Shown one piece after another: positions 2,125-13,913 of a stretch of DNA of 21,075 bases (the stretch's first letter is position 1; each line of letters opens with the position of its first letter). Position numbers and translations under genes: made by a program. This DNA is from a virus: IMG/VR virus record IMGVR_UViG_3300006324_000096, positions 1 through 21,075 of that record. One strand, 5' to 3'. The notes beneath the pieces were generated by a model. The model made no database searches. It had not been told where the DNA came from and saw nothing but the letters and a program-made list of their open reading frames with translations.

Positions 2125-2318
2125 TGCTCTAATTCTTCCAAATAGTCTAATTGGTTGAGTTTATCTTTTATTCGAAGTTTCATTTTTTTGTGCCTTTTTA
2201 TAACTGCCTTTGATTCCCATGATCGATCTCCATTCCGATCAGTTTCCATTTGTTCTACATTATTATGTAGATAACGGAATTCTTTCTTAAGTCGCCTTTG
2301 TCGTTTGCTCTTGCTCAT
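2121..2318 (-). CDS. Small basic helical protein, 65 aa
   Basis: Function unknown. The protein is Lys/Arg-rich from its start (MSKSKRQRRLKKEF) and ends in a Leu/Glu-rich helix (KLNQLDYLEELEH), compatible with a short coiled coil and nucleic-acid binding. It overlaps the 3' end of the dpdA-like gene by 32 bases in another frame; that overlap encodes dpdA's acidic tail. AGAGGA about nine bases upstream supports the ATG at 2318. Its stop codon forms part of the next promoter's -35 box. Confidence 0.6.
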   Translation of the reverse strand: MSKSKRQRRLKKEFRYLHNNVEQMETDRNGDRSWESKAVIKRHKKMKLRIKDKLNQLDYLEELEH

Positions 2319-3846
2319 TCTCCAGTTCCTCTAGCTTGTGCTCATGCTCTTCAGTGAATTCATCATCGTCAACTAGGGGTTGTGTATTATCAGCATCTTC
2401 AAATAGTGAATTAAACATAGCACTTGCATTCACAGTTCTTTTACCTGTCATACCTCTAGTTCCTATCACTGAAATCCAAAATTTATTAAATTCTTCTATT
2501 ACTGCCATTGCAGTATCTTTACTATCTGTTGCAAATATAGCCTCTATAATATCTCTAAAGTAAACTCTATCAAAACGTTCATCAACTAGCATTTTTGGAA
2601 TAACATTATTATCATATTGTCTGTTTGCTTCTTGTACTGCATTAATATGATGCCAAACATTATGTCCCATTTGAATTGCATAACTAAATGAATCCCAACT
2701 AGTTCTTCCTTCTTTACCTATCTTATTTAGGTCGCCTGGCTTATAACAACATACTTCTGAAACTTTTAATCCGTTCGTTATAGGTGAATCTTCAAAGTTT
2801 TTAAATATACCGTCTTGTAATACTGCATCTTTAAATAAACGAGAATCTGTAGCATACTTCTTATCATCTATACTCGGCACCATTCGGTACACCCATTTAG
2901 ATCTATCTTCTGTTTCTGTTTGAATATAAACTTGTCCATTTGCAGTTGCTAAGAAAGGACTTGCACAATCAAATGTAACTGTAAAGTTTGGATTGTGATA
3001 TTTACGAACTGCTCTTTGTACGTCAGTTAGTAAGGCCGCCCATTCAAGTTTAGACGTACCTAAGAAGTGCATATAGTCATGCAATCCTTTTTCTAATAAA
3101 TTATCAAAACGTAATGCTACAAGTCTTTTTAATACTAGGTGTATGTCACACATATTTTGACCACCCATTGACCACCCATTAAAGTGATCTGTATATTTCT
3201 TAGGATCACAATAGTCTTTCATTTGCTGATACCAATCTTCTGCATCAGTATGATTTTCACCTTGTAATACATTAAGGAATTTACAAGCACCAGACTTGTT
3301 TTTCATAAAGTATTCATTATTAATGCGTGTGGCATTTACAGCTTCTTGATATGTTGTAATACCTGTAGCTCTTTGTCCAGCCGGTGACCGTGCCACCCAA
3401 GCAGGTATATCAAGTATCATACCGTAATCAGCATACGCATCAAGCCACGTTAAGACTTGCTGTCGTTTCTTTTTTGCTCTAGGACAATTAGGATCTTTCC
3501 AATCACCTTCCCATACACCTTTACCAATTTGGAAACCACCTGAGTCTCCAAGTATCCAACTGTTATTACGATCCCTATTACGGACCATGTCTTCTTTAGG
3601 TGAGTGTTTGTTTACATCAAGTTCGGCGTGTCCCGCACTATATAGACTCCAATGATATTTGAATAAACCCTTTTGTGGGTTTAACCAGTTCATACTTTCT
3701 ACATCGTTCGGGAAGTTTGATGGAACTCGTGACTTTTCAACATACTCGTCGTATCGTTGCTTTCCTATATAAGTTGCAAAGAAGCCACTTATTGCCGGAA
3801 GAAATATTGCATAATCTTTTTGTGCTGTCGTTAAGTCTGTTCTCAT
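2287..3846 (-). CDS. dpdA: DpdA-like DNA-guanine transglycosylase (TGT superfamily), 519 aa
   Basis: Likely role: exchanges guanine in phage DNA for a 7-deazaguanine base, which protects it from host restriction (known for phage DpdA proteins). Seen: DSGGFQ at 101-106 (general-base Asp of TGTs), MILDIPAW with Asp146, VLQGE near 194, GWSMGG at 224-229 (TGT substrate Gly loop), and TFDCASP with Asp293 at the TGT nucleophile position. The C-terminal CxCxxC...H zinc site of bacterial tRNA TGTs is degenerate (VCCYKP, then HNVWHH), which argues for the DpdA branch over tRNA TGT. An acidic tail (DDDEFTEEHEH onward) overlaps the next gene. It follows the FTR1-like gene by 3 nt. Other preQ0 genes are not in the window, apart from a possible QueD-like protein at 816-1190. 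The substrate base is unknown. Confidence 0.8.
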   Translation of the reverse strand: MRTDLTTAQKDYAIFLPAISGFFATYIGKQRYDEYVEKSRVPSNFPNDVESMNWLNPQKGLFKYHWSLYSAGHAELDVNKHSPKEDMVRNRDRNNSWILGDSGGFQIGKGVWEGDWKDPNCPRAKKKRQQVLTWLDAYADYGMILDIPAWVARSPAGQRATGITTYQEAVNATRINNEYFMKNKSGACKFLNVLQGENHTDAEDWYQQMKDYCDPKKYTDHFNGWSMGGQNMCDIHLVLKRLVALRFDNLLEKGLHDYMHFLGTSKLEWAALLTDVQRAVRKYHNPNFTVTFDCASPFLATANGQVYIQTETEDRSKWVYRMVPSIDDKKYATDSRLFKDAVLQDGIFKNFEDSPITNGLKVSEVCCYKPGDLNKIGKEGRTSWDSFSYAIQMGHNVWHHINAVQEANRQYDNNVIPKMLVDERFDRVYFRDIIEAIFATDSKDTAMAVIEEFNKFWISVIGTRGMTGKRTVNASAMFNSLFEDADNTQPLVDDDEFTEEHEHKLEELENEQEQTTKAT

Positions 3847-3849
3847 TTT

Positions 3850-4392
3850 TTATCCAAGATGTTCAATCGCTTCATAGCCAAACCATAAAGCAAATATAAG
3901 GAACGTATATCTTGTTATTGAAAATAGTGTTTGTGTTTTAATGTGTTTTTTCAAATATGGAAAACCACCAAATACTAGTGCAATAGCCAGTCCTGCCCCT
4001 AACCATCCATCGCTTGTATTGTTTACTGATTGAAACATAAAAATACATATTTCCATAAATTCTCTAGCAAAAATAAAGAATATTGTAAACATTCCTACAA
4101 ACAAACCTGTTTGTCCACTTCTAATGTAGTTGACGTGTTGTTGTAAGTGCTTGGCCATATTTTTACTATTAAAGAACAAGTAAAACATTAATGCAGAAAG
4201 TAATGCATACATACCTACTTCGTATGCCTCTAATGCTTCACCCAAGAACCATCCAGATACTATTCCTGTGATTAATCCTAAGAAAGCTGGTACATATACT
4301 TTCCAGTTTAATCCTATAGCTGTAGAAACCATGACGGTTAAGAACGCCATCTCTAATGCTTCACGCCCAACGTAGGCAAAAGATGCTAACAT
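3850..4392 (-). CDS. FTR1/EfeU-type iron permease-like membrane protein, 180 aa
   Basis: Likely an inner-membrane iron transporter or a remnant of one. Seen: about six hydrophobic segments (near residues 2-24, 33-50, 58-75, 97-121, 128-146, 157-175). There are two REXXE motifs exactly 100 residues apart: REALE at 10-14 in the first helix and REFME at 110-114 in the fourth (FFIFAREFME). Family knowledge: FTR1/EfeU permeases carry REGLE in helices 1 and 4 as the iron-binding glutamates, and EfeU has FFAVAREGLE at the second. At 180 aa it is shorter than EfeU (~276 aa) and lacks a seventh helix and C-terminal region. No EfeO/EfeB partner is seen. Its ATG overlaps the clamp stop (TAATG), so it is coupled to gp45 and shares the promoter at 5150. 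Transport activity is unproven. Confidence 0.75.
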   Translation of the reverse strand: MLASFAYVGREALEMAFLTVMVSTAIGLNWKVYVPAFLGLITGIVSGWFLGEALEAYEVGMYALLSALMFYLFFNSKNMAKHLQQHVNYIRSGQTGLFVGMFTIFFIFAREFMEICIFMFQSVNNTSDGWLGAGLAIALVFGGFPYLKKHIKTQTLFSITRYTFLIFALWFGYEAIEHLG

Positions 4393-5178: not shown

Positions 5179-5933
5179 GCATTTTTTTGTAGTCCTCGCT
5201 CATTAAAATACTCAAATATATCGAGCGTAGGTTTCCAGCCAGACTTTCTTAATTTAGAAATGTCTGCTTGATTATCAGTCCGTTCGTGCTTATCGCCAAT
5301 TTTTAATTTAGGATATAAACCTAAATGGTCTGTAATGTCTTTTAGTTTATGTGATTTCCCTGTGCCCAAATCAAATACACCAGTTAATTTTTTATTCATT
5401 AAATGAATTAGTGCATCACAAATATCACTAACGTGGATAAAATCTCGTTTATGGTTGCTGTTTATAAAATCAATTTCTCGTCTTAGAAGTTTTGGAATAA
5501 ACATATCGGGTCTTGGTTCTTGGTCTCCATTGTATATAGTTGTAAAACGTAGGCCTAATGCTCGTCGTGGCGCAATCCGTTCAATTGTATGTTTTGATAA
5601 TGCATACGGATTCCTCCAAGGTTCTTTTGCAGTACTTGAACTTGCATATATAATTCTTGCTTTTGGAAATGCTTTAAACAATCTTTTTGATGCTAGTACA
5701 TTGTGTTCCCAATATTCTTTTGGATGTGTAAGACTTCTTCTGACACCGCTCTTTCCTGCTAAATGAAATATTATATCTACATCATAATTTAAATCACAAT
5801 CTCTAAGATCCTGTCCGTCTTTTAAATCAAGTGTATGAATTTCATGACTGTATAGTAATCTGATTCGTAGTTCTTCACCAACCATACCTTTACTACCAGT
5901 TATTAATATTTTTTTTGAGTTTGCGTCAATCAT
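5175..5933 (-). CDS. NAD-dependent sugar-nucleotide epimerase/dehydratase (extended SDR), 252 aa
   Basis: Likely acts on a nucleotide sugar. Seen: Rossmann motif with GSKGMVG at 13-19 near the N-terminus, DL at 36-37 after the second strand, FHLAG at 56-60, catalytic Ser cluster SSS at 98-100, and YALSK (Tyr110/Lys114) as the SDR YxxxK. RDFIHVSD at 163-170 is typical of NDP-sugar epimerases, and FDLGTGK follows near 187. At 252 aa it is shorter than usual (~310-340), with a reduced C-terminal substrate domain. It overlaps the nucleotidyltransferase by 8 bases, so the pair probably acts in one sugar pathway, for example making a DNA- or surface-modifying sugar. The substrate cannot be read from sequence. 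Confidence 0.85.
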   Translation of the reverse strand: MIDANSKKILITGSKGMVGEELRIRLLYSHEIHTLDLKDGQDLRDCDLNYDVDIIFHLAGKSGVRRSLTHPKEYWEHNVLASKRLFKAFPKARIIYASSSTAKEPWRNPYALSKHTIERIAPRRALGLRFTTIYNGDQEPRPDMFIPKLLRREIDFINSNHKRDFIHVSDICDALIHLMNKKLTGVFDLGTGKSHKLKDITDHLGLYPKLKIGDKHERTDNQADISKLRKSGWKPTLDIFEYFNERGLQKNA

Positions 5934-6351
5934 CTATGCCTACCCAAGCGTTTGCTACTCGTTTTCTTAAATCACTACTAGAAAATCTATGGTTACGTTT
6001 ATTATAATAATGTTCTATTCCTAAACTTTCACCTGTTGTTTTACCACTAAAGTCTTTGCCTTCATACTCAACACCTAGTATACGTACATTAATTCCATTA
6101 TATAATAAAAGAAGGTCATCTATATCTTCTTCTTTAACATACGGAATAATTTCATCAACATAACGTACACCTTTTAATTGTGTGTAACGTTCAATTATAG
6201 TTTGAACAGGTTTATTTTTTCCTGGTCTACAAGTTGGATCAATTTGTAATCCGCATATAAGATAGTCACATTGTTCCTTTGCTTCACGCAACATAGCAAT
6301 ATGTCCTGCGTGTAGTAAATCAAATGTACTAAATGTTATACCAATTCTCAT
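5926..6351 (-). CDS. Cytidylyltransferase-like nucleotidyltransferase, 141 aa
   Basis: Likely transfers CMP or AMP to a phosphorylated alcohol or sugar (TagD / HldE-C type). Seen: GITFSTFDLLHAGH with the HxGH nucleotide-binding motif at 14-17, VDEIIPY after the second strand, and SSSDLR at 124-129 as the ISSTxIR-type motif. At 141 aa it is close to single-domain GCT family members (~130-160). The ATG overlaps the purC stop (ATGA at 6348-6351). It sits beside the epimerase, suggesting activation of the same sugar or polyol. Nucleotide and substrate specificity are unclear. Confidence 0.85.
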   Translation of the reverse strand: MRIGITFSTFDLLHAGHIAMLREAKEQCDYLICGLQIDPTCRPGKNKPVQTIIERYTQLKGVRYVDEIIPYVKEEDIDDLLLLYNGINVRILGVEYEGKDFSGKTTGESLGIEHYYNKRNHRFSSSDLRKRVANAWVGIDD

Positions 6352-7250
6352 TTTATAAACCTGTTTGTTAGTTCTGTTACTAATTCATATTTGTTTGCAA
6401 CATTAGATAAATCTTCGCCATCTCTAAAAGATTGCTTATCTAATTGTTTTGCAGGATCCCCATCAGGCCAAATACGCCAACTGTCGTTATCAACAACATC
6501 AGATAGTACTAAAAGGTTGTCTTTAGATCGAAACCCTAATTCAAATTTTATATCTACAAGATGTATATCAGAAATATTCTTCCAACTATTTTCTATCGCT
6601 TTAAAGGCCGGAATAACAATTTTATTAATAGCACTATCCAACTCGTGTGAATTGAGTAAAGCTAGAGCAGTCATTAGAGGTTTACCTTCAATAGGATCTT
6701 TTGCAGAATACAAGTCCCATCTATCTGGCCATTTATAACCTGGATCTCCAAGTTTAATATATGGATCTGTATATACACCGTCGGCCCATTTACCTTCTAC
6801 TAGATATTTTTCTCTAGCTTCATTTTCATCCATCTGCATAGGTTCATTTACAAGTGGAGGCATTACAACAGAATGTTTATGAAATACTTCCCATATAGGA
6901 TTTACAAAATGATAAGGTGGTGCATAAGCCGTATTATATTCTGGGTTGCGTTTTAAGTAACTTCCATAAGCATAACGTCTAACAACAAACTCAAGTGGCA
7001 ACATATCGCATTCGTTGTGTAGCATTGTACTTGGGTCTGTTTGTTTAATAAAAGATGTAGCTATACCATGTGCATCAAGCATTTTAAATACATTTGATGC
7101 TTGTTTTGTTTTTTGTATTCCTATATCAGTAAGTTCTTCTTTTTGAGCGGCATCACCGCCTGTTAAGAAATTTTTTGCAACCATCTTAACTGTAAAGGGT
7201 TCATCGCCCTTTTGAATTAATTTTGTTTTACCTTCAACTAAAATAGTCAT
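6348..7250 (-). CDS. purC: SAICAR synthetase (PurC), 300 aa
   Basis: Condenses CAIR with aspartate using ATP in de novo purine synthesis (cytosol). Seen: EGKTK at 6-10 at the start, PLEFVVRRYAYGSYLKR at 85-101 (the family's signature, usually PLEVVVRNxxAGS), DIKFELGF at 233-240 followed by LVLSDVVDNDSWRIWP (DEISPDTxRLW in bacterial enzymes), and LDKQSFRD near 270. Length is in the long-form range (~290-300) rather than the 237-aa E. coli type. Marine T4-like phages are known to carry purine genes. It is linked by ATGA overlaps to hemB upstream and the nucleotidyltransferase downstream, so it is co-expressed with replication genes. Confidence 0.93.
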   Translation of the reverse strand: MTILVEGKTKLIQKGDEPFTVKMVAKNFLTGGDAAQKEELTDIGIQKTKQASNVFKMLDAHGIATSFIKQTDPSTMLHNECDMLPLEFVVRRYAYGSYLKRNPEYNTAYAPPYHFVNPIWEVFHKHSVVMPPLVNEPMQMDENEAREKYLVEGKWADGVYTDPYIKLGDPGYKWPDRWDLYSAKDPIEGKPLMTALALLNSHELDSAINKIVIPAFKAIENSWKNISDIHLVDIKFELGFRSKDNLLVLSDVVDNDSWRIWPDGDPAKQLDKQSFRDGEDLSNVANKYELVTELTNRFIK

Positions 7251-8035
7251 ATTAATTTTCTCGCTCCATAAGATATCATATAATCTGCACCAGCTCTTTC
7301 AAAAACATGGTACGTTTCTACTAATTGTTCAGGTGTGCTAATTCCTAACCATTCACCTGATACTTGAAATACACCACAAGGTTTACCTGTGATTTGTTTT
7401 ATAGGTCCTATTAAATCTATACTAGTCATACCTGGTTTAACCATTAATTCATCAGCACCATCGTCTGCATAATTTACTGATTTGATAATAGCTTTATCTC
7501 TATCTGAAACATCTAATTGATAGGGTCTTACTATACCTTTTTCTATTCCCATTACATTACGCCAACCACTATAAAAACTAGATCTAAATTTTGTACTGTA
7601 ACTCATTACAGGAATTTTACTATTAGCATTTTTAATATTTTTAACAGTATTTGGTTGACAATCACTAGGAGCAATTGTGGCCCCAGAAGCATTGTATATT
7701 TCTACTGCTTGTTCCAATAATAGCTCGTCTGTTTTATCTTGATTGCTTGTAACGTTACAATGCCCGTCATGTGTATAAGCACATAAACAAATATCTACAT
7801 TTAGTTTAATATTAAGTTTAGCAAGAGCTTTTGCTGTCTGTGATACTAAAACAAAGTTATTCTTTTCTTTTAGTTTATAATCTGGAATATAAAATAGTAA
7901 AAATTCCTTAACTCCTAAGTCAATATCTTTTTTAACACGTTCAATAACATCTACAGGACCAAAAACTTTGTTATCATTATCTAGTCCCGAATCATGTGTT
8001 GTAGGACTAGAAAATATTGTTTGTACTACTCTCAT
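7247..8035 (-). CDS. hemB: Porphobilinogen synthase / delta-aminolevulinate dehydratase (HemB), 262 aa
   Basis: Would condense two 5-aminolevulinates to porphobilinogen, an early step of heme/tetrapyrrole synthesis. Seen: DICLCAYTHDGHC at 81-93 with three zinc-type cysteines (83, 85, 93), APSD at 122-125, MSYSTKFRSSFY with Lys149, LMVKPGMTSIDL with Lys200 (the two Schiff-base lysines of the family), and FQVSGEW at 223-229. All active-site landmarks are in the usual order. At 262 aa it is shorter than cellular HemB (~325), lacking most of the N-terminal arm that shapes the octamer, and the segment between the Cys motif and APSD is short. The start overlaps the exonuclease stop (ATGA at 8032-8035) and the end overlaps purC. 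The family call is firm; activity is inferred. Confidence 0.92.
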   Translation of the reverse strand: MRVVQTIFSSPTTHDSGLDNDNKVFGPVDVIERVKKDIDLGVKEFLLFYIPDYKLKEKNNFVLVSQTAKALAKLNIKLNVDICLCAYTHDGHCNVTSNQDKTDELLLEQAVEIYNASGATIAPSDCQPNTVKNIKNANSKIPVMSYSTKFRSSFYSGWRNVMGIEKGIVRPYQLDVSDRDKAIIKSVNYADDGADELMVKPGMTSIDLIGPIKQITGKPCGVFQVSGEWLGISTPEQLVETYHVFERAGADYMISYGARKLI

Positions 8036-8562
8036 CGTTTCACCCCAAAGTGTTTATATGTTTGTTGTACACATTTAGCTTGATAGTAACAATCTGCTAA
8101 GGCGTTGTGTGCGTCGCTCTGTATTGCTTTACGAGGGTCTGCAGGCATCATTGCAAACAATGTGCGACTGTCTCTTATTTGCCAGAAGTTCCAAGGTACT
8201 GGCTTACCTAACATTTCGTATAAGTTTTCTAACATACCATAATCAAACATAGGACCTTGAGCCCACAAGTAATCTAAACCAACACACCATTTATTTAGGC
8301 GTTGAGTTAATTCATTTAGGTCAACTCTGTCTTCATCACCTAGAGCTTCATCTCTAATATGTGCTTTTTGTTTAGCCCACCAGTTTAATGTATCTTGATC
8401 GATTGTACGACCTAGTTCGGTTTGGTCATCTACATTAACACGTAGATATAATCCATCATGTGGTTCGTCATCAGTAAAAGGATTAAATTTAATTGCACCA
8501 ATTGTTAATATGGCAGAATTAGGTTTAACTCCTAATGTTTCTAAGTCAATCATTCCATGCAT
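8032..8562 (-). CDS. DEDDh-type 3'-5' exonuclease, 176 aa
   Basis: An RNase H-fold exonuclease, DexA/ExoX/Rv2179c-like, probably degrading DNA or RNA ends. Seen: MIDLETLG with Asp6/Glu8 (ExoI), WAQGPMFDYGML with Asp107 (ExoII), and SDAHNALADC with His152 and Asp157 (ExoIII), so all five DEDDh residues are present. Length is typical of single-domain members; T4 DexA is 227 aa. Its ATG at 8562 overlaps the gp43 stop as TAATG, with GGAGGAG just upstream. An in-frame ATG at 8553 is an alternative. Position directly behind the polymerase fits a role in nucleotide recycling or host DNA breakdown. Confidence 0.85.
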   Translation of the reverse strand: MHGMIDLETLGVKPNSAILTIGAIKFNPFTDDEPHDGLYLRVNVDDQTELGRTIDQDTLNWWAKQKAHIRDEALGDEDRVDLNELTQRLNKWCVGLDYLWAQGPMFDYGMLENLYEMLGKPVPWNFWQIRDSRTLFAMMPADPRKAIQSDAHNALADCYYQAKCVQQTYKHFGVKR

Positions 8563-11234
8563 TATTCTCCTCCTCCAAAATCAAATAGTGTTTGAAAAGT
8601 ATTATGTTGGAGTGTACTTGCTACGTCCCAGTTTAATACGCCAATTAAATTTCCTAGTTTATTATCAATAATAGTTTCTTCCATAGCTTCGTTATCAAAT
8701 GGAAGTTCTTTAAACCAATCAGGTAAACGTAATTCGTCTGTTGGATATGCAACACTTGTATACCCTAATGGATTTTGTTTTAGTTTACAAACAATAACTT
8801 TCATACCATCTACAATCGTTTGGCTATACCTGTCGCCATTCATACGTTTTAATGTATTCCAGTTAATACTTGCTCGAACGTGTCCGGGCATATTTGCTTT
8901 GCCTTGTTTTTCTTCTTTTTTTCTATACTCTGTAACTTTATTAGCACGTTTAGGAGATCCTTTCTCATATCCAGGACGTAACTTAAAGTCTTTTCTAAAT
9001 TCTGTAATACGTTCTAATACTTCAGATTCTTTTTTATCAGTTAATACCATAAGCAATAACTCACTTAAAAAGTTTTGCATAAACTCTGGTGTATCAGAAC
9101 GTTTTAAATCAAGCCCCATGGCTTTTACTTTACCTGGTCCGTCAATATCTTTACGCATACCTTCTTCGTCATAAATTAATGTTGCATAACGTTTCTTTGT
9201 AATATACAATCCGTTTTCTGCAACAATTTCTCTACCTGCTTGAATTACATCTGCACGACCTTTAGGACAATGGAATGCTTTACCCATAAACTCAATAAAT
9301 GTTTTATTAACTTCTTCTGCTACCTGATCATATAATTTAATAACACTTTCTTTAGTCCAAGGTATTGCTCCAGATTCTATTTCTTTTTTCAAAATTGGAA
9401 ATGCAGAAAAGTATGCAGAATCTGTATCTCCGTAAATTATAGCATCACCAACATGGTCGTATGTGCCTGTAATAACTTTATTAGATTCTGCCGCCATATG
9501 TTTTGCAATTTGTCTACCGGTTAATGTAGTTGATTGCCCAAGACGTTTATCAAAAAATCTACAACCTGGATTTAAAAGTGCTCCATATAAACTGTTTAAA
9601 TTAATTTTTTTAACAAGTTGTCGTTTATCCCAATATTCAATTTCAATTTTATTGCCAGCTTCAATGGCTTTTGTTTTCATTTCTTGCAGTTCTTTACGTT
9701 CTGCATACCAACGTTTTAATAATCCAGGTATAACACCATCAAACTCGTTTGTTAAAATAGTTCCGTTTGCTGTTAACATCCAAGGTTTACGACTATCAAA
9801 TATTGCTTTATAAACTTCTGCCGCACTCATTATTTCTGAATCTGCATTTTCCCAATCAATTGTAATGTCAAAGTCTTTACGTTTTTCCATTACAGCTTCA
9901 TATTCTAATGTACCGAAATGTCCTTCCCATGCTCCTGCAAATGATTTTTTCTTTAATGTCATTGCTTCTTCAACCATTGCATCTGTATCAATAGGACGTA
10001 ATTGTCCTACAATAGTTGCTGGGTCCATATTCAATGCTCTAATAACACTTGGATATAGAGAATTTAAATCCATTGAACCTATCCACTTGTGTAAACCTTT
10101 TTTAGGAAATGCAACATAAGCCCCAGCCGCGGTTGCGTGTTCTCTATCATGCTTACTTCTATTAGGTACTTGTAATCCTCTACCATGTGCTTCGTTAATA
10201 ATTGCTTGTTCTGTAACTGCTACTGCACCCATTGTAGTTTGCAGTAATACAGTATTTGCATGAGCTAGTTCATTACTAAGATCAATAAACTTTAATTTTT
10301 GATCTAGTTTGTCTAATAGTGCTACGTCTTGTCTATTATATTCAATAAACTTTTTAAAATCGTTTTTATAAAGTTCGTCTAACGTACCTTCATAAACTGT
10401 TTTCTTTTCACCTATTTCAGCTTCACCAATAGCATCCAGTCTATAAGAATGTGTTTCAGAGTATGTATATTTTCTATACAGTTCTAAACTATCTAAATGC
10501 ACACGCCCTTTTAAATCATATGTTTCAAGTGTACGCCCATATTTTTCATATTCACGTTTCTTAGGTAGTTGTCCCCAAAGACAAAATCGTCTTGTGTCGT
10601 CTTTGCTTAATACTCTGCTTACTCTATTAACTGTATAAGGAATATCATAACCTTCTGAGTTCCAACCACTTAATATATCAGCGTCTTCAATTAAGTCAAG
10701 AAATGTTTTTAACATATCTTCTTCTTTTTCAAATAAATGTGTATTCGGAAAGTCTTTAGTTTGCTCTTTAGCTTCTTCCATTGTAATTGTTTTCGGTGGA
10801 ATTGCTAAAGTAACAAGTGTATCCATCCATTGTAGATGTACACTAATTGCTGTTATTGGCATAAACGGATCTGAAGGATCAGCAAAGCCACGTTCAGGAT
10901 CAAAGTCCGTTTCAATATCCCAAAATGCTACGTTGAGTTTTGGAGCATCTTGATTAAGATAATTTTCACTTAAACATTGGAATATCGGATTTATATCGCT
11001 TTCAAATAATTGCTTTGTATTATTAATAGCGAGTTCTTTGCGGAATTCTTTAGTTGACTTTGATACTATTCTATTTAAAGGATCACCGTAAATGCTTTTA
11101 TGCTTTCCGCGAGGATCTTTATAATAAAATGTATATTTTATAGGATATTCTGTGAAATGTCGTTTTCCTTCTCTGCGTTCTACAACACGGAGTAGGTCAG
11201 CGTCACGATCAAACATAGCGTCTACATAACTCAT
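8562..11234 (-). CDS. gp43: Replicative DNA polymerase, T4 gp43-like family B, 890 aa
   Basis: Replicates the phage genome. Seen: exonuclease motifs FWDIETDF (Asp106/Glu108), WNSEGYDIPY (Asp197) and YNRQDVALLD (Asp303); polymerase motif A SMDLNSLYPS with Asp389, motif B KKINLNSLYGALLN around 542-555, and motif C YGDTDSAYF at 601-609. Length is near T4 gp43 (898). The C-terminus holds QTLFDF, a clamp-binding (PIP-like) peptide, fitting gp45 nearby. All catalytic residues are present, with no intein or split. GAGG lies just before ATG 11234. It leads a chain of overlapping genes through the epimerase. Confidence 0.97.
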   Translation of the reverse strand: MSYVDAMFDRDADLLRVVERREGKRHFTEYPIKYTFYYKDPRGKHKSIYGDPLNRIVSKSTKEFRKELAINNTKQLFESDINPIFQCLSENYLNQDAPKLNVAFWDIETDFDPERGFADPSDPFMPITAISVHLQWMDTLVTLAIPPKTITMEEAKEQTKDFPNTHLFEKEEDMLKTFLDLIEDADILSGWNSEGYDIPYTVNRVSRVLSKDDTRRFCLWGQLPKKREYEKYGRTLETYDLKGRVHLDSLELYRKYTYSETHSYRLDAIGEAEIGEKKTVYEGTLDELYKNDFKKFIEYNRQDVALLDKLDQKLKFIDLSNELAHANTVLLQTTMGAVAVTEQAIINEAHGRGLQVPNRSKHDREHATAAGAYVAFPKKGLHKWIGSMDLNSLYPSVIRALNMDPATIVGQLRPIDTDAMVEEAMTLKKKSFAGAWEGHFGTLEYEAVMEKRKDFDITIDWENADSEIMSAAEVYKAIFDSRKPWMLTANGTILTNEFDGVIPGLLKRWYAERKELQEMKTKAIEAGNKIEIEYWDKRQLVKKINLNSLYGALLNPGCRFFDKRLGQSTTLTGRQIAKHMAAESNKVITGTYDHVGDAIIYGDTDSAYFSAFPILKKEIESGAIPWTKESVIKLYDQVAEEVNKTFIEFMGKAFHCPKGRADVIQAGREIVAENGLYITKKRYATLIYDEEGMRKDIDGPGKVKAMGLDLKRSDTPEFMQNFLSELLLMVLTDKKESEVLERITEFRKDFKLRPGYEKGSPKRANKVTEYRKKEEKQGKANMPGHVRASINWNTLKRMNGDRYSQTIVDGMKVIVCKLKQNPLGYTSVAYPTDELRLPDWFKELPFDNEAMEETIIDNKLGNLIGVLNWDVASTLQHNTFQTLFDFGGGE

Positions 11235-12163: not shown

Positions 12164-12697
12164 TTATCTTGCTTGTTCTAATTTAATTGATATATTTCCT
12201 GATATAACAACTCGATTATGTTCACATTCTTGTTTTGGAACGTAATGTGAAACAGTTCCAGGAAATATAATTATTAAACCAGTATTTGGTTTAATATTTC
12301 TTCCTGCCCCCGGAAAAATTAATGGAGCACACTTTGGACAAGCATCTACATAATATATAAATGACCAAAGTGATGGCCAATGGGCGTGTGGATTAGTATT
12401 GTCTCCAGTTTTATAAATTACTCCCCAAGCATCTGTGCAATATGTTTCTCCAGTAGGATATGGATGAACTTCTTGTTTAAGTGTATCTATTGCAAAATCA
12501 ATTATTAGTTTAAAATATTCATTCTTATACATATCCCAAGTAGTCATATCAGCTTTAACGTTTGTTTCGTGATTTTGTTGGTCACCAAGGTCACGTATAA
12601 TATTTGTTAAGAGTTCTTTAAACCCTTCAGCCTTAGGATATACGTTTGTATGTACAACCATTGGTTCTGTAAATAAAAATCGTTCTGAGTTTATCAT
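12164..12697 (-). CDS. 2OG-Fe(II) oxygenase-like protein, paralogue 3, 177 aa
   Basis: Likely a cupin-fold (double-stranded beta-helix) dioxygenase. Seen: NPHAHWPS (His104/His106), DACPKCAP (Cys120/Cys123), GLIIIFPGTVSHYVP (His151), ECEHNR (Cys158, Arg162) and VVISGNIS at the end. Phage-type 2OG oxygenases of this family show PHxH...YYL...FPSWLxHxVxPN...RxSISFN in the same order. HxH replaces the more general HxD. Its ATG overlaps paralogue 2's stop as ATGA. Substrate unknown. Confidence 0.75.
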   Translation of the reverse strand: MINSERFLFTEPMVVHTNVYPKAEGFKELLTNIIRDLGDQQNHETNVKADMTTWDMYKNEYFKLIIDFAIDTLKQEVHPYPTGETYCTDAWGVIYKTGDNTNPHAHWPSLWSFIYYVDACPKCAPLIFPGAGRNIKPNTGLIIIFPGTVSHYVPKQECEHNRVVISGNISIKLEQAR

Positions 12698-13302
12698 AAA
12701 TTTACTGCTACGTTTCCGGCTATTGAGAATCTATTATGATTACATTTATGTGGTGGAACAGCATGAGCTATCCAACCAGGAAATATAATTAATAATCCTG
12801 TTTTAGGAAAATGAAGGTTTGCGTCTTGACAATTTGGAAATACTATCGGTGCACAATCCTTACAAGCATCTATATAGTAAGTAAATGCCCATGTTGCCGG
12901 CCAATGATAATGTGGTTCTAATCCTAATGTCCAAGTTTCTTTAGAAGTGTTAGGCTTATACAATACACCCCAACAGTCAAGTATATATGGATCATTATTA
13001 AATCTATCCATATTAGGAAATAATGGTAGAGCTTCTTTTATTGTGTCTAGAGCAAAGTCTGTTATTTTTTTAAAGTATTCATTGTCTTGAAAGAGTTTAC
13101 GAAAATTAGCTGATTGCGGTCCTTTATTTATTGTTGAGTTTACAAAGGTAGTTTGCGTAGGTTCTTTATGATATGTTTGTTCTATTTTATCGTAGTCTAA
13201 TATAATTTTACTTAATAGAGGCTTTATAGTTTCAGCATCAGGATATGTGGTTGTAAATATATCACCACCTTCTAAAAATTGTTTTGTGTCAGAATTAATC
13301 AT
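12694..13302 (-). CDS. 2OG-Fe(II) oxygenase-like protein, paralogue 2, 202 aa
   Basis: Same architecture as its neighbours: EPHYHWPATWAFTYYIDAC, then CKDC, GLLIIFPGWIAHAVP, KCNHNR and FSIAGNVAVNL. An N-terminal ~100-residue helical part is shared with the other two (TYPDAETIKPLLSKII matches YPGADTVKPFLTQLI in paralogue 1). A ~15-residue insertion (around KPNTSKETWTLGLEP) precedes the HxH. Both ends overlap the neighbouring genes by ATGA, so the three are translated together. Confidence 0.75.
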   Translation of the reverse strand: MINSDTKQFLEGGDIFTTTYPDAETIKPLLSKIILDYDKIEQTYHKEPTQTTFVNSTINKGPQSANFRKLFQDNEYFKKITDFALDTIKEALPLFPNMDRFNNDPYILDCWGVLYKPNTSKETWTLGLEPHYHWPATWAFTYYIDACKDCAPIVFPNCQDANLHFPKTGLLIIFPGWIAHAVPPHKCNHNRFSIAGNVAVNL

Positions 13303-13904
13303 AATTTTATTGCTACGTTTCCTGCTATTGATATTCGGTCATGTTCGCACTTATGCGGACCAACGCTATGTGTTACCCAGCCTGGAAATATAACTAGGTC
13401 CCCTGTTTTTGAGTTAATAGCATTTCTATTGTCAGTATTAGAAAATACTAACGGCGAACAATTTTCACAAGCATCTATATAATATGTAAAAGTCCACGTT
13501 GCAGGTATATGTCTATGTGGATGTAATCTTGGTGTATTAGCTACTCCTGGACCTCTAGATAAAAAAGATTTATTTAATACACCCCAAACATTTATTATAT
13601 AAGGTTCAACAGGCCAACTTGTAATCTTGCTATCATTGTTTTTATATGTTTCTATATCTGGAAATGATGGTGTGCATTCTTTAATAGTTTTTATTACAAA
13701 GTCAGTTATTTTTTTGAAATATGAGTCTTTAAGCATTACTTCTATTGAGTCCAAGGGTACTAACGGTGCCCAAGAAGTTTTCTCTTGCTTGTTATAAGTG
13801 TTTATTAGCTGTGTTAGAAACGGTTTTACTGTATCAGCGCCAGGATACGTATTCTGATAAACTTCACCAATTTCGTTAAATTCTTTTTTTGTTAATGCTG
13901 ACAT
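13299..13904 (-). CDS. 2OG-Fe(II) oxygenase-like protein, paralogue 1, ~201 aa
   Basis: Seen: HPHRHIPATWTFTYYIDACENC, GDLVIFPGWVTHSVGP, KCEHDRISIAGNVAIKL. It has the best match to the general phage 2OG pattern (WVTHSVGP, RISIAGN). The start is taken as ATG 13904; the frame also has a TTG at 13910, two codons earlier. The upstream gene stops at 13914, so either is possible. Fe(II) ligands are predicted as the paired His of PHRH and the His of THSV. The reaction is unknown. Confidence 0.75.
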   Translation of the reverse strand: MSALTKKEFNEIGEVYQNTYPGADTVKPFLTQLINTYNKQEKTSWAPLVPLDSIEVMLKDSYFKKITDFVIKTIKECTPSFPDIETYKNNDSKITSWPVEPYIINVWGVLNKSFLSRGPGVANTPRLHPHRHIPATWTFTYYIDACENCSPLVFSNTDNRNAINSKTGDLVIFPGWVTHSVGPHKCEHDRISIAGNVAIKL

Positions 13905-13913
13905 TAACAATAC

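Follow-up and report, generated by a model that had tools for sequence, protein, structure and literature searches.

The cellular zinc-type porphobilinogen synthases (PBGS, HemB) of E. coli (1B4E/1I8J) and human (ALAD) are the closest known counterparts of the phage protein described here, which shares with them the TIM barrel, both Schiff-base lysines and the three-Cys zinc site. In cellular HemB, an N-terminal arm and a glutamate that binds allosteric magnesium are the elements switching the enzyme between an octamer and a less active hexamer. A different arrangement is found in Rhodobacter capsulatus PBGS, which is hexameric, metal-independent and escapes magnesium control (PMC535902). The viral HemB has in common with that enzyme the loss of allosteric-magnesium determinants, but it has kept the catalytic zinc site, which R. 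capsulatus PBGS does not have, and is without the arm. With regard to phages, AlaS, HemO and PcyA/X have been published, with activity shown for AlaS and PcyA; phage AlaS has no heme feedback site and complements E. coli (PMC11480375). A search of its text turned up neither HemB nor porphobilinogen synthase. HemC and HemF (coproporphyrinogen oxidase) were named in one sentence for the deep pelagimyophage PMP-MAVG-4, with no gene order or analysis and no mention of HemB (PMC7029224). The genes described below belong to the same pathway and the same kind of marine T4-like phages as the published AlaS/HemO/PcyA-X genes; AlaS, HemO and PcyX were also found here on HemB contigs, and the heme genes found in phages here go beyond those described in PMC11480375. 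In the main text of open-access papers we found no report of phage HemB or HemE; a mention elsewhere is possible, but phage HemB appears to be new. The view of the initial annotation that tetrapyrrole supply is not a standard phage function has to be relaxed in view of these published genes.

A HemB gene next to phage replication genes

The window, i.e., the whole 21,075-nucleotide stretch of IMG/VR record IMGVR_UViG_3300006324_000096 that was analyzed, has an open reading frame for a 262-aa HemB running from 8035 to 7247 on the minus strand, and many stops when the same interval is read on the plus strand. Pfam ALAD (PF00490) matched the protein at 151.7 bits (E 3.3e-44, cut-off 24.6), and no other Pfam family did so. 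The best NCBIfam match, NF006762, also names HemB; its score of 140 bits is below the equivalog cut-off of 297, a naming threshold rather than a mechanistic feature, because of sequence divergence and missing segments. PHROGs v4 gave no match for the protein. The genes of this region are as follows:

7247..8035, minus strand: hemB, armless porphobilinogen synthase, 262 aa (Pfam ALAD, AF2 model, invariant catalytic residues)
8032..8562, minus strand: DnaQ/RNase T-type 3'-5' exonuclease, directly upstream of hemB (PF16473, 134.5 bits; phrog_255)
8562..11234, minus strand: T4-type family B DNA polymerase (phrog_262, 658 bits; closest to jumbo phages)
6348..7250, minus strand: purC-like SAICAR synthase, directly downstream of hemB (Pfam SAICAR_synt, 123 bits)
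5926..6351, minus strand: cytidylyltransferase-like protein of RfaE-domain type (profile match), found directly after the exonuclease in hemB-less relatives
3850..4392, minus strand: short homologue of EfeU/FTR1-type iron permeases, a 180-aa membrane protein (E 1.2e-7 to NCBIfam EfeU, short of the curated cut-off)

Direct reading of the sequence revealed 4-bp ATGA overlaps on both sides of hemB, one between the exonuclease stop and the hemB ATG and the other between the hemB TGA and the purC ATG. A protein identical to the window HemB is encoded on a contig from a different IMG/VR dataset (L002), and the polB-exo-hemB order was seen on 11 contigs; about ten contigs besides the window, derived from different IMG/VR datasets, share the gene order. 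The identical protein and the shared order rule out a chimera or contamination, and 7247-8035 is confirmed as a genuine phage-encoded HemB. The claims of the initial annotation on enzyme identity, flanking overlaps and absence of contamination are all upheld by these data.

Its placement of hemB within the replication operon was correct only in that the gene sits in a cluster of replication genes. In the window lineage hemB lies between the exonuclease and purC, whereas relatives that retain polB-exo, with exonucleases of 80% identity or less, have no hemB. In these relatives the gene after the exonuclease is a cytidylyltransferase (L258, L260-L262), purC (L259, L263) or, further out, an epimerase. 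Since purC occurs without hemB in L259 and L263, it too counts as accessory in this slot. Thus, hemB is an accessory gene inserted after polB-exo rather than a constant member of the replication operon. It has the features of a phage auxiliary metabolic gene: it is located among phage genes, recurs across independent assemblies and is absent from related phages.

Several other genes of the window were noted. The EfeU/FTR1-like protein has two RExxE motifs (REALE and REFME) and is kept at 88-89% in three other records (G003, G005 and G016); it is a candidate phage iron permease near hemB, and a tie to hemB is unproven. A 519-aa protein with a DSGGFQ motif (2287-3846, minus strand) is possibly TGT/DpdA-like; it had no Pfam match and has homologues in jumbo phages, e.g., Pseudomonas phage PA5oct. 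Three tandem genes at 12164-13910 (minus strand) belong to one family, and the one examined matches 2OG-Fe(II) oxygenase phrog_81.

Active site, missing arm and fold

When aligned with E. coli HemB, Lys149 and Lys200 of the window protein correspond to the Schiff-base lysines Lys195 and Lys247, and Cys83/Cys85/Cys93 to the zinc ligands Cys120/122/130 (CxCx7C). Other equivalent positions are D81, S124, Y146, R159, Q173, S226 and Y256 (E. coli D118, S165, Y192, R205, Q220, S273 and Y312), so that the substrate residues of the cellular enzyme, Ser273/Tyr312/Arg205/Gln220 in E. coli numbering, are kept. D81, C83, C85, C93, K149, R159, Q173, K200, S226 and Y256 are invariant in 24/24 viral homologues down to 43% identity. 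Judging from its conserved ligands, the window HemB is of the zinc type. The position of E. coli Arg216 is not kept in viral HemBs (V, H, E and others were found), although it adjoins Arg170, which is invariant among them. The allosteric-magnesium glutamate (E. coli E232) is K in the window protein and K, R or S in 24/24 viral sequences, whereas all sampled cellular HemBs of that alignment have E except Leptospira (S).

The window HemB begins at the first barrel strand, its residue 1 pairing with residue 29 of E. coli HemB. Relative to E. coli, it has no SMPG loop, lacks about 28 residues of arm and a portion of the loop that precedes the zinc site, and is a few residues shorter in the lid. 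About nine residues following QVSGEW and a few at the very end are gone as well, which leaves a C-terminus shorter than that of cellular HemB. A wrong start codon was considered as the cause of the missing arm and rejected; the open frame upstream adds six in-frame codons at most. The intact lysines and CxCx7C set, together with the absent arm, had been read correctly in the initial annotation. An AF2 model based on 24 viral sequences (pLDDT 90.8, pTM 0.90) begins straight at barrel strand 1, and the best 50 matches in a PDB comparison were all ALAD/PBGS (TM 0.90 to solved ALAD and up to 0.91), which confidently places the modeled fold in the HemB/ALAD family. The window HemB is thus without the features of octameric, magnesium-regulated PBGS, and from the loss of both the arm and the magnesium glutamate we infer that viral HemB has probably been freed from magnesium and octamer control and would escape quaternary control in the host.

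Viral HemB clade, phage lineages and linked heme genes

IMG/VR scans and local extraction yielded some 70 HemB loci. All complete IMG/VR HemBs that were inspected have no arm (at most about 14 residues ahead of the first strand) and are 259-285 aa long, compared with about 320-360 aa in cellular HemB, with shortened loops. The exceptions are a near-identical pair, L129:5986-6966 and L130, on contigs classed as viral; these HemBs are full-length and cell-like (58% to Priestia) and fall apart from the armless clade. The tree placed 32 viral HemBs without the arm in a single clade with 100/100 support, on a long branch. The nearest of the 17 cellular sequences in the tree, a set that did not contain SAR11 HemB, was that of Leptospira (support 100/99), and no sampled alphaproteobacterium adjoined the viral clade. 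Leptospira HemB is 38.7% identical to the window protein and 43.3% to the HemB of G001 (described below); the other cellular HemBs aligned at about 28-33%. Despite its support, Leptospira is doubtful as a true sister of the viral clade, as sampling is thin and long-branch attraction possible. A limited form of the phylogeny proposed in the initial annotation returned a virus-only clade, and the donor cannot be named from this tree because SAR11 HemB is outside the sample. The suggestion that a Cys-type site may point to a donor other than alphaproteobacteria has to be weakened: HemBs of Sphingomonas, Methylobacterium and Shinella are indeed Asp-type, but that of Rhizobium is Cys-type, so the site does not exclude an alphaproteobacterial donor. 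No close cellular relative was found in genome contigs scanned with phage-derived HemB patterns, the best cellular match in phage and plasmid collections was 39.7%, and HemB in isolate phages was limited to bacterial-looking records. Pairwise dN/dS among viral hemB genes was about 0.11-0.47, a range that indicates purifying selection.

The phages with armless HemB belong to at least two dissimilar lineages, one of jumbo type and the other of SAR11-type pelagimyophages. The window PolB is nearest to those of the jumbo phages Sinorhizobium phage Phosso (49.8%) and Agrobacterium phage Atu_ph07 (46.1%), and nearly the whole window is collinear with a 199.8-kb contig, G016 (IMGVR_UViG_3300027709_000056). 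The second lineage is represented by G001, a pelagimyophage genome of 177,460 b, regarded as complete because it ends in a 119-bp direct terminal repeat; its PolB is 73.7% identical to that of SAR11 phage Mosig and only 26% to the window PolB. The HemBs of the window and G001 are nevertheless 69-71% identical, so that hemB has passed between phage lineages.

In addition to HemB, G001 encodes AlaS (565 bits, cut-off 338), HemC, HemF, heme oxygenase and bilin reductase; HemC (318.5 bits vs 164) and HemF (331 vs 297) are above the NCBIfam equivalog cut-offs. AlaS was detected at 565-581 bits on four HemB-bearing records (G001, G017, G018 and G030), and heme oxygenase and bilin reductase in both G001 and G017. 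Pelagimyophage-type contigs show the order 2OG-oxygenase, hemF, (F20), hemB, hemC near baseplate genes, with hemF-(F20)-hemB-hemC overlapping. F20 is a 277-282-aa protein with conserved cysteines located directly upstream of hemB in several of these contigs:

L008:3451-4284: F20
L021:9156-10004: F20

It also occurs on contigs without detected hemB (L072-L076, L078-L081), had no Pfam or PDB sequence match and only a marginal PHROGs match, and gave a poor structure model. Relatives of the window phage carry hemB with up to four other enzymes of the heme pathway. In the 107-kb contig G017 (IMGVR_UViG_3300000101_000007), from another lineage, hemF-hemC-hemE-hemB occupies 84655-88184 (also L221:4655-8184), with alaS about 8 kb beyond the cluster and HemO/PcyX elsewhere on the contig. 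The same cluster and alaS were found in G030, and hemF-hemB with alaS in G018. HemE adjoins HemB in G017 and G030 and is near it in G028, G029 and G034; this HemE-like protein is above the Pfam URO-D cut-off (208-271 bits), and its best NCBIfam match is TIGR01464 hemE at 211 bits, under the cut-off of 303. None of these proteins was matched to a HemB, HemC, HemF or HemE family in PHROGs v4. HemD and HemJ (7 records each) and ferrochelatase (21) were not found in the phage contigs examined. In the window lineage no pathway gene other than HemB was seen: G016, which is of window type and may be incomplete, showed none of AlaS, HemC, HemE, HemF, HemO and PcyX. A class-III aminotransferase of G016 was considered as HemL and rejected, as it had no match to Leptospira HemL.

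Two observations concern other genes of these contigs. A tryptophan-halogenase-like gene is present on a hemB-bearing phage contig (L021:2190-3746) and another in G001. At about 72-91 kb, G016 carries several clustered radical-SAM/SPASM proteins, along with aminotransferases and an AMP-binding enzyme; the cluster may be an island for modification or natural products.

Possible role during infection

We consider it likely that the gene codes for a working zinc-type HemB, an auxiliary enzyme that sustains tetrapyrrole, most probably heme, synthesis in the infected host, probably outside quaternary control. The arm-free protein is predicted to be active, and would condense two 5-aminolevulinate (ALA) molecules to porphobilinogen during infection; the product would go into host tetrapyrroles, heme being the likeliest, while loss of the arm and the magnesium glutamate would let the enzyme escape the host octamer/hexamer switching. 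In the window lineage it would act on host ALA, as no other pathway gene was seen there. The role is clearest in phages supplying a stretch of the heme pathway, i.e., the pelagimyophages and the HemE-bearing lineage. This reading is based on the ALAD profile and fold, the invariant active site, dN/dS, the viral clade, linkage to hem genes and co-carriage of AlaS, HemO and bilin reductase, and is consistent with the published complementation of E. coli by a phage AlaS without a heme feedback site (PMC11480375). Weighing against it are a report that contact between arm and barrel stabilizes the closed lid over the active site in the octamer (PMC7729013), so that a HemB without the arm might be a poor catalyst, the replaced Arg216 (albeit beside the invariant Arg170), the lone HemB of the window lineage, even in G016, and the failure to find HemD or ferrochelatase in any phage contig examined. 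Besides, HemB is usually not the limiting step of the pathway.

It is possible, but unlikely, that the product serves a non-heme tetrapyrrole, such as bilins made via phage HemO/PcyX or siroheme/cobalamin intermediates, or a host bilin/heme signal. Heme oxygenase and bilin reductase in G001 and G017 and the published phage bilin cassettes (PMC11480375) are compatible with this possibility; however, HemE and HemF act on the branch that leads to heme, the routes to siroheme and cobalamin diverge upstream of HemE, and the window-type contig G016 has no HemO/PcyX. A weak or inactive armless HemB that mixes or competes with host HemB, and so lowers or reroutes tetrapyrrole synthesis, is less probable still. 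In its favor are the lost arm, a lid shortened relative to that of E. coli, the change at Arg216 and the solitary HemB of the window lineage. Against such sabotage, the catalytic set is strictly kept in 24 proteins down to 43% identity, hemB is under purifying selection, and the genes for HemC, HemF, HemE and AlaS that are linked to it in operons of other phages point to supply. Finally, although HemB is a near-universal cellular enzyme and L129 and L130 do carry a cell-like copy, a host gene kept briefly by chance, through recent transfer, chimera or cell contamination, is very improbable given the recurring gene order, the ATGA overlaps and the deep virus-only clade with no close cellular relative, and for the armless clade this idea is close to refuted already, with contamination rejected.

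With regard to the supply of tetrapyrroles, which we favor, we are evenly divided on a broader proposal, that aquatic T4-like phages have their own partial heme pathway (AlaS, HemB, HemC, HemE and HemF) with a virus-only, arm-free HemB of new quaternary structure that has escaped magnesium and octamer-hexamer control, and run heme synthesis outside host regulation. The finding is of interest because the regulatory arm has been lost throughout the clade and because relatives have near-pathway gene sets. Phage tetrapyrrole metabolism, so far a matter of single genes, is widened to cover most of the early part of the heme pathway, in a lineage akin to SAR11 phages. The viral protein represents a natural minimal HemB, in which the active site was kept while the arm, thought to be the seat of regulation, was dropped. 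Both the purpose of this arm and the need of phages for new heme during infection are now open to testing.
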